A stretch of 39,285 bases of DNA from Anaerolineales bacterium (GTDB taxonomy: Bacteria; Chloroflexota; Anaerolineae; Anaerolineales; UBA11579), in assembly GCA_024710875.1 (NCBI GenBank), contig JANJTX010000163.1, positions 1-39,285 of the forward strand, given 5' to 3'. Under the pieces are notes generated by a model. That model made no database searches. It saw only the letters and a program-made list of their open reading frames with translations, and was not told the origin of the DNA. Shown in pieces: positions 34,208 through 36,516 of the stretch (positions are counted from its first letter, which is position 1; each line of letters opens with the position of its first letter). The translations under genes and the position numbers were made by a program.

Positions 34208-34243
34208 CCGATGTAGGGGCAGGTTTCAAACCTGCCCCTACGG
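34208..34243. repeat. Perfect palindromic interspersed repeat GTAGGGGCAGGTTT-C-AAACCTGCCCCTAC
   Basis: gtaggggcaggtttcaaacctgcccctac at 34213-34241: 14-bp arms around a single c, plus ccg/cgg outer bases. Confidence 0.9.
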
Positions 34244-34313
34244 ATAGTGCTGGCGTTGTCCCCGCGTCCCCCAATCGTAGGCTGGCCGTAGTTGAAGCAC
34301 TAGCGGTTTTTGG

Positions 34314-34319
34314 TATAAT
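34314..34319 (+). promoter_or_regulatory. Predicted extended -10 (TGGTATAAT) for glmS
   Basis: ggtttttggtataatccgcg upstream of the ribozyme leader. Confidence 0.6.
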
Positions 34320-34370
34320 CCGCGTCCACGCACGGCAGGCAACCCGCCGGCGTGCCAACTGAATAGGAAA

Positions 34371-34664
34371 CGGACAGCGCATGGCCCGGCAAACCACCGC
34401 CGGGTGACGAGGTTGAGGGTTCCCTGCCGCAGGGTAGGGCACGGGCAGTCAGCACCAGGGATTGCCTAAAATCGAAAGTTCAGCGGAAGCCCTCCGGGAG
34501 CGCCACGCCCCCGATGTCCTTTCCTCCAACTCAAAATCTCACGGCCAACGCCGCCCCGGCAACGGGACGGACAAAACCGGCGGGAAGCGCGGCAGACAAC
34601 GGCGCAGTTCGCGCGCCGGAGTCTGGGTTTGCCTGCGGGCAAACCAGCACCACGGTTCATGGAG
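34371..34664 (+). ncRNA. glmS ribozyme/riboswitch (GlcN6P-responsive), with an unusual core insertion; 3' boundary approximate
   Basis: Core motifs in order upstream of glmS: cAGCGC, TGACGAGGTTGAGGGT, AATCGAAAGTTCAGCGGAAGCCCTCCGGGAG. The GAGGG/CCCTC pairing is present. Predicted cleavage near 34376/34377. Confidence 0.82.
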
Positions 34665-34674
34665 GAACCCCAAC

Positions 34675-36516
<1,842 letters not shown>

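Follow-up and report, generated by a model that had tools for sequence, protein, structure and literature searches.

Results

A glmS-class ribozyme with two additional hairpins in its core

The glmS gene of an Anaerolineales bacterium (GCA_024710875.1) is preceded by a glmS-class ribozyme that carries a module of two hairpins between helices P2 and P2.1. The RNA was found in contig JANJTX010000163.1, of which positions 1 to 39,285 of the forward strand were analyzed (39,285 nt, here called the window). The ribozyme spans 34366-34579 on the plus strand, 3' of a sigma-70-like promoter and 5' of the glmS start codon (ATG 34675). Its class and its added hairpins are established at the sequence level; self-cleavage and the ligand are inferred. 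The same module is present in most Anaerolineales and in some other Chloroflexota.

RF00234 (glmS) is the sole significant Rfam match in 34250-34750, covering 34365-34537 of the plus strand with 25.9 bits and an E value of 3.7e-4 (4e-4 when rounded) for a searched stretch of 501 bases. This covariance-model search, a check proposed in an initial annotation made without database searches, thus scored below the Rfam gathering score of 37 bits, which is an annotation threshold and not a biological feature; the default Rfam scan over the whole window listed no match. The window falls below the gathering score because the insert and P4 lie outside the Rfam model, and relatives of the same architecture exceed it (L005, 66.1 bits; L007, 56.0 bits; L358, 63.5 bits). 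Only 2 of 14 control genomes, those of Bacillus subtilis and Deinobacterium chartae, matched in the Rfam glmS search, indicating that the model is not promiscuous at the setting used. An RF_site1 match in the search of 34250-34750 was below its own cut-off and was rejected as chance.

The core motifs AGCGC, GACGAGG (34406-34412), AUCGA (34471-34475), and GCGGAAGC occur in the correct order upstream of glmS, at the positions that the initial annotation had listed. The class core letters AGCG (cleavage site), ACGAGG (34407-34412), AUCG, and GCGGANGCC are all present in the window and invariant over 54 aligned copies. Self-cleavage is predicted between A(-1) and G1 (A34376/G34377) within AGCGC, from the conserved position of AGCG in the Rfam alignment. 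P1 (GCCCGGC/GCCGGGU, 34384-34405, strands 34384-34390/34399-34405) and P2 (GAGGG, 34415-34419, with CCCUC, 34490-34494) meet the criteria of RF00234: in A4, an alignment of 99 glmS-type copies, 96.9% of P1 cells and 100% of P2 cells are paired with changes on both sides, as seen in 3 of the 5 pairs of the P2 5' strand. The two pseudoknot helices have complementary letters in the window. P2.1 pairs C34408-A34410 with 34472-34474 and is invariant, so it holds no covariation information; P2.2 pairs C2, G3, and C4 (34378-34380; numbering per PMC7125110) with GCG at 34483-34485, which is followed by the conserved GAAG up to 34489, and nt5 and nt53 covary across copies.

The 3' part, described in the initial annotation as large and GC rich, turned out to be mostly a standard P3-P4 domain. 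P3 (34495-34513, strands 34495-34498/34510-34513) is paired in 90.5% of A4 cells, and the candidate partner for P3.1 lies in its loop (mean complementarity of 4.82, versus 4.22 +/- 0.06 in a partner-shuffled control). P4 (34542-34579) folds with an anatomy like that of Rfam P4, with a purine-rich internal loop (CCAACG/ACAAAA) and a GCAA tetraloop, yet its P4a has only 3 bp. P3.1 and P4 have support but are not decisively shown.

The location criterion of the class, the 5' untranslated region of glmS, is also met. The promoter, TTGAAG-16-TATAAT at 34292-34319 (+), lies about 57 nt 5' of the cleavage site and rests on a consensus match only (10 of 12 positions; 1 such site found versus 0.1 expected). 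A Shine-Dalgarno sequence, GGAGG, lies at 34661-34665, and glmS (34675-36516, 613 aa, MCGIVGYIG...) was delimited by its open reading frame and protein comparison; the mechanical start of this frame at 34462 is spurious. The protein is at most 76% identical to GlmS-like open reading frames of named Chloroflexota metagenome-assembled genomes (MAGs), and its nearest relatives come from MAGs named Anaerolineales, Anaerolineae, and Chloroflexota. Two further elements were observed in the region: a near-perfect palindrome, GTAGGGGCAGGTTTCAAACCTGCCCCTAC, 5' of the promoter at 34213-34241, with no other exact copy in the genome, and an 8-bp hairpin, GGTTTGCC-TGCG-GGCAAACC, between ribozyme and ribosome-binding site at 34626-34645, without a trailing T run.

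Position, fold, and covariation of the insert

The insert lies between the P2 5' strand (GAGGGUU) and AUCGA, adjoining the cofactor site. This junction measures about 3 nt in the Rfam consensus and in two Bacillota examples reading GACGAGG-P2-(~3 nt)-UCGA, namely, Acetoanaerobium (L368, 94.6 bits) and Paenibacillus (L367, 64.8 bits); in the window, it is filled by HP1, a linker, and HP2 (about 46 nt), followed by AAA. The A and U of AUCGA belong to the cofactor pocket in glmS crystal structures. Residue roles in the active site are partly given in PMC7125110 and PMC11602151. Given this pocket and the junction location, the insert is assigned to the core, where it separates P2 from P2.1. The initial annotation had stated that in bacterial ribozymes the strand after GACGAGG runs almost straight into AUCGA, which held for the Rfam consensus and both Bacillota examples; its own condition for refutation, that the insert might lie in a normally variable loop, was not fulfilled for any of these.

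HP1 (34422-34439) consists of 7 bp, CCCTGCC (34422-34428)/GGTAGGG (34433-34439), closed by a GCAG loop. It is followed by a CAC linker (34440-34442); HP2 (34443-34467), which pairs GGGCAGUC with GAUUGCCU (34443-34450/34460-34467); and AAA-AUCGA (34468-34475), which supplies the P2.1 3' strand and the cofactor-pocket sequence. The initial annotation had proposed two hairpins inserted in the core, and that claim held, with compensatory changes in about 200 relatives. Its HP2 was correct, and its HP1 register (CCCTG-CCG-CAGGG, 34422-34434) was ruled out in favor of the conserved, covarying one. Folded alone, the 46 nt of 34422-34467 form exactly HP1 and HP2 (-22.8 kcal/mol, z = -2.55), and 3 of 200 shuffled sequences fold equally well, which is modest support by itself. 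The reality of the hairpins is settled by covariation in relatives and not by folding energy.

MAFFT alignment of all 54 copies (A1) misregistered the P2/HP1 junction between the glmS type and a sister type found before other genes, and therefore two seeds, A2 and A3, were used. A2 (24 copies, preselected for HP1 pairing of at least 6/7) has 87.4% of cells paired over the whole structure and a covariation score of 0.556, versus 0.214 when shuffled and at most 0.225 when slid. In A4, 98.4% of HP1 cells and 95.9% of HP2 cells are paired, and 7/7 HP1 and 5/5 HP2 pairs change on both sides; the overall covariation score is 0.718, versus 0.229 after shuffling and no more than 0.195 after sliding. 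A5, comprising 100 sister-type copies (seed not selected on HP1), has 98.7% of HP1 and 97.5% of HP2 cells paired, every HP1 and HP2-base pair changes on both sides, and the score is 0.597 (0.229 shuffled, at most 0.194 slid). Comparison of homologous leaders, the second check proposed at the outset, thus supports both hairpins and rules out chance hairpins. Three biases apply to these values. A4 and A5 were fitted to models that contain the named helices, which favors high paired percentages; the seed of one model, R1, was chosen on HP1 pairing of at least 6/7, unlike that of the other, R2, although the slid controls are nevertheless far lower; and related sequences were counted separately and not as independent events.

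The linkers and loop are conserved as well. HP1 is almost fixed at 6 to 7 bp and mostly ends in a GNRA loop (69/99 glmS-type and 86/100 sister-type copies), the HP1-HP2 linker, YUAA in most relatives, is CUAA, UUAA, or CCAA in 92/99 and 97/100 copies, respectively, and GAAAAUCGA follows HP2 in 79 of the 99 glmS-type copies; the YUAA and GAAA linkers are kept across families. Within this set, the window copy is degenerate, with its CAC linker, its GCAG loop that is not GNRA, and UAAAAUCGA. Could it be a decayed, noncleaving ribozyme in what is now an ordinary 5' untranslated region? Its 25.9 bits against Rfam, its degenerate linker, and its weak P4a would fit such a reading. However, the core letters, P1, P2, P2.1, HP1, HP2, P0, and P3 are intact, a good promoter is present, and two congeners (G001 and G002; copies L019 and L155) share the fold while differing in their letters, which makes decay very unlikely.

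A helix across the cleavage site

A further helix, P0, pairs a 13-nt leader stretch before the cleavage site with sequence directly 3' of P3. In the window, its 5' strand GGAAA-c-GGAC (34366-34375) ends directly 5' of the cleavage site, and its 3' strand is GUCCUUUCC (34516-34524). The initial annotation had listed neither P0 nor the sister copies in front of glnA and genes for glutamate synthase. The positions of P0 are unpaired in the Rfam consensus. A duplex test and covariation establish P0: 85.1% of its cells are paired in A4, with 7/7 pairs changing on both sides, and 84.3% in A5, and the duplex reaches -11.7 kcal/mol in L002. Runs of at least 7 pairs occur in 84% of two-hairpin glmS copies versus 14% of shuffled sequences, in 6/6 copies without an insert, and in 55% of the sister type versus 17% of shuffled sequences. 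The register shifts between genomes, and the helix is weaker in the sister type. No such run was found in the 8 copies of f82, a family group outside the class, or in the single Clostridial copy examined. The presence of P0 in no-insert copies and its absence from f82 indicate that it is independent of the insert. If cleavage occurs as inferred, P0 would keep the 5' product paired to the ribozyme afterwards, an inference from sequence alone.

Distribution and variation in Chloroflexota

Among 61 near relatives, 50 match the Rfam model at E <= 0.1 and only 17 lie above the Rfam cut-off, meaning that the cut-off misses most copies of the two-hairpin lineage in this sample. R1, the model of the two-hairpin form built from A2, matches 215/251 genomes of the order and 90/301 genomes sampled across the phylum, which excludes an oddity of one genome. 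Because R1 picks up no-insert copies too, these tallies are not all two-hairpin. The architecture, which the initial annotation had called atypical, is so relative to the textbook ribozyme and is common within its own lineage.

Individual copies were also read letter by letter in the order, class, and phylum. Three have a single hairpin (L008, L024, and L079). Five from the same bacterial class lack the insert and retain P0 (L039, L041, L043, L045, and L047; family f64 and others), serving as natural no-insert controls. Members of f82 (L358-L365) also have two hairpins, in the form GCUAAC...GGAAC-AUCGA. On a contig labelled as a Spirochaetaceae MAG (L084), a two-hairpin ribozyme accompanies an Anaerolineae-like glmS (66% identity); the contig is probably misbinned, or else reflects transfer.

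This variation bears on a simpler explanation, namely, that the insert is an unconstrained loop expansion, functionless GC-rich hairpins arisen by chance in a tolerated loop. In its favor, length varies, especially in HP2, with up to about 118 nt between ACGAGG and AUCGA, and the one-hairpin and no-insert relatives imply that the module is dispensable for the class. Against it stand the both-side changes at all HP1 and HP2-base pairs and the constancy of HP1 length, of its GNRA-type loop, and of the linkers across families, and we consider loop expansion very unlikely.

A sister subclass upstream of glnA and glutamate synthase genes

The genome of the window has a second copy (L001, L309) on contig 25 (12494-12328, minus strand), scoring 28.5 bits by Rfam and 170.6 bits by R2, whose seed includes that copy. 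Both hairpins recur in it, built from other sequences, and it precedes a split glutamate synthase operon (PF01645, PF01645, and PF01493 [GXGXG]), followed by enolase-superfamily and cyclase genes. Across all classified copies, the contexts are glmS (110), glnA (60), an ada/eamA type (23), glutamate-synthase-like genes (21), and unassigned (2); outside the glmS context, 104 of 106 precede glnA, directly or in an ada-eamA-glnA operon, or glutamate synthase genes. These contexts are read directly from the contigs, and since copies were sampled by two ribozyme models, the proportions are not unbiased frequencies. In many genomes, a single glmS copy is accompanied by a single one of the glnA or glutamate synthase type.

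The ada/eamA operons end in glnA in 4/4 cases of the first set and in all sufficiently long stretches of the second. The possibility that ada and eamA are independent targets in family f11 was ruled out, as they head operons in which glnA comes last on every contig of sufficient length. In one family (L305-L308 and L371-L390), genes for an Ada-type AraC/O6-methylguanine methyltransferase and an EamA exporter open the glnA operon behind the ribozyme. Two other arrangements were observed. In L085, glnA lies beside glmS, each with its own ribozyme, a glnA type at 225-385 and a weaker glmS type at 1832-1985 in tandem; in L160 (G093 contig 134), the gene behind a glmS-type copy (AGCGCA) encodes a protein of 1143 aa that combines FAD-oxidase, 4Fe-4S, and glutamate synthase domains.

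The active-site helix and ligand of the sister type

In glmS copies, nt5/nt53 is C/G (25 copies) or A/A (81 of the rest) with hardly any exception, and nt4 is C in 108/110; the glmS-linked L329 has U4, as in the sister type. Copies before glnA or ada-eamA-glnA all have G, A, or U at nt4, nearly always followed by C5U6 or A5U6, together with A53, and glutamate synthase copies are mixed, with G, A, or U in 15/21. The sister type is also distinct in the nucleotide preceding ACGAGG and, in many copies, after UCG. Its nt4 could be accommodated if the bulge had shifted to position 4, leaving C5-G54 and U6-A53 as pairs, a possibility that we infer only from the letters. The same kind of bulge shift has been measured as a rescue, A6C rescuing C4A about 24-fold (PMC7125110).

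Do the sister ribozymes use another amine cofactor, such as glutamine, in place of GlcN6P? The consistent differences at position 4, before ACGAGG, and often after UCG would suit this idea, as would downstream genes for glutamine and glutamate synthesis. Amines other than GlcN6P give weak glmS ribozyme activity. However, the sister type retains AGCG, ACGAGG, AUCG, and GCGGA and with them the cofactor-contacting letters, the position-4 change is explicable by the P2.2 bulge shift with U6-A53, and L329 shares U4 while preceding glmS. We therefore regard a changed cofactor as unlikely. Because the core letters, including AUCG and GCGGA, are unchanged, GlcN6P is likely to remain the cofactor of the sister type, although both cleavage and ligand are inferred and a different amine is not excluded.

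Discussion

The Chloroflexota RNA shares with RF00234 (B. subtilis/T. tengcongensis type) the AGCG at the cleavage site, P1, the P2/P2.1/P2.2 double pseudoknot, P3, the place before glmS, and, on support that is not decisive, the candidate P3.1 and P4 with its tetraloop and purine internal loop. Unlike that type, it has two hairpins (~46 nt) at a junction that is about 3 nt long in the Rfam consensus and in L367/L368, P0 across a cleavage site that Rfam leaves unpaired, A.A in place of C-G at nt5/nt53, and sister copies that precede glnA or genes for glutamate synthase. McCown, Roth and Breaker (RNA 2011) reportedly described Deinococcus-Thermus glmS variants with extra catalytic-core stems and altered supporting substructures, a precedent that limits the novelty of the insert, and reportedly found all but two glmS ribozymes in glmS mRNAs. 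The glutamine riboswitch RF01739 (glnA RNA) is likewise a cis-regulatory RNA before glnA; it is an unrelated aptamer that is not known to self-cleave. It was absent from the Rfam matches of L001 and L012, of which glmS was the only one. No relevant report of glmS ribozymes before glnA or glutamate synthase was found in the openly licensed literature searched, subscription journals being outside its scope. We thus describe a new structural variant of the glmS class, whose position relative to the Deinococcus-Thermus stems was not compared, and a glnA/glutamate synthase regulon that appears unreported within that literature.

How might these RNAs work? In our preferred model, GlcN6P would repress glmS by binding the ribozyme and triggering cleavage between 34376 and 34377, after which the cleaved mRNA would be degraded. 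The core would be enlarged beside the cofactor pocket by HP1 with its GNRA-type loop, the YUAA linker, HP2, and GAAA, and P0 would clamp the leader 5' of the cleavage site to sequence 3' of P3. Module and P0 together may act as external supports for the double pseudoknot and the scissile strand, leaving the chemistry unchanged. The sister subclass, with the same module, would control operons for glnA and glutamate synthase, and GlcN6P, an end product of glutamine use, would in this way feed back on glutamine supply. We consider this model as a whole likely, in the absence of any biochemical evidence of cleavage or ligand; the stabilizing role and the mRNA decay are likewise inferred. A bolder reading, in which a duplicated and elaborated ribozyme class forms an Anaerolineales regulon switch for glnA, glutamate synthase, and glmS, and the sister subclass with its shifted active-site helix answers a different amine such as glutamine, is improbable; if true, it would be a natural cofactor change in a self-cleaving ribozyme.

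In the textbook view, the core of the glmS ribozyme is nearly uniform and its targets are almost solely glmS. Here, one bacterial lineage has conserved extra helices adjoining the active site and also uses this RNA class in front of genes for glutamine and glutamate synthesis. It is possible, judging from sequence alone, that a single RNA class exerts feedback on the entire branch from glutamine to amino sugars. If the sister ribozymes cleave with GlcN6P, nitrogen assimilation would be tied to the level of a cell-wall precursor by RNA alone; if they cleave with another amine, they would offer an example of how a ribozyme switches its cofactor.
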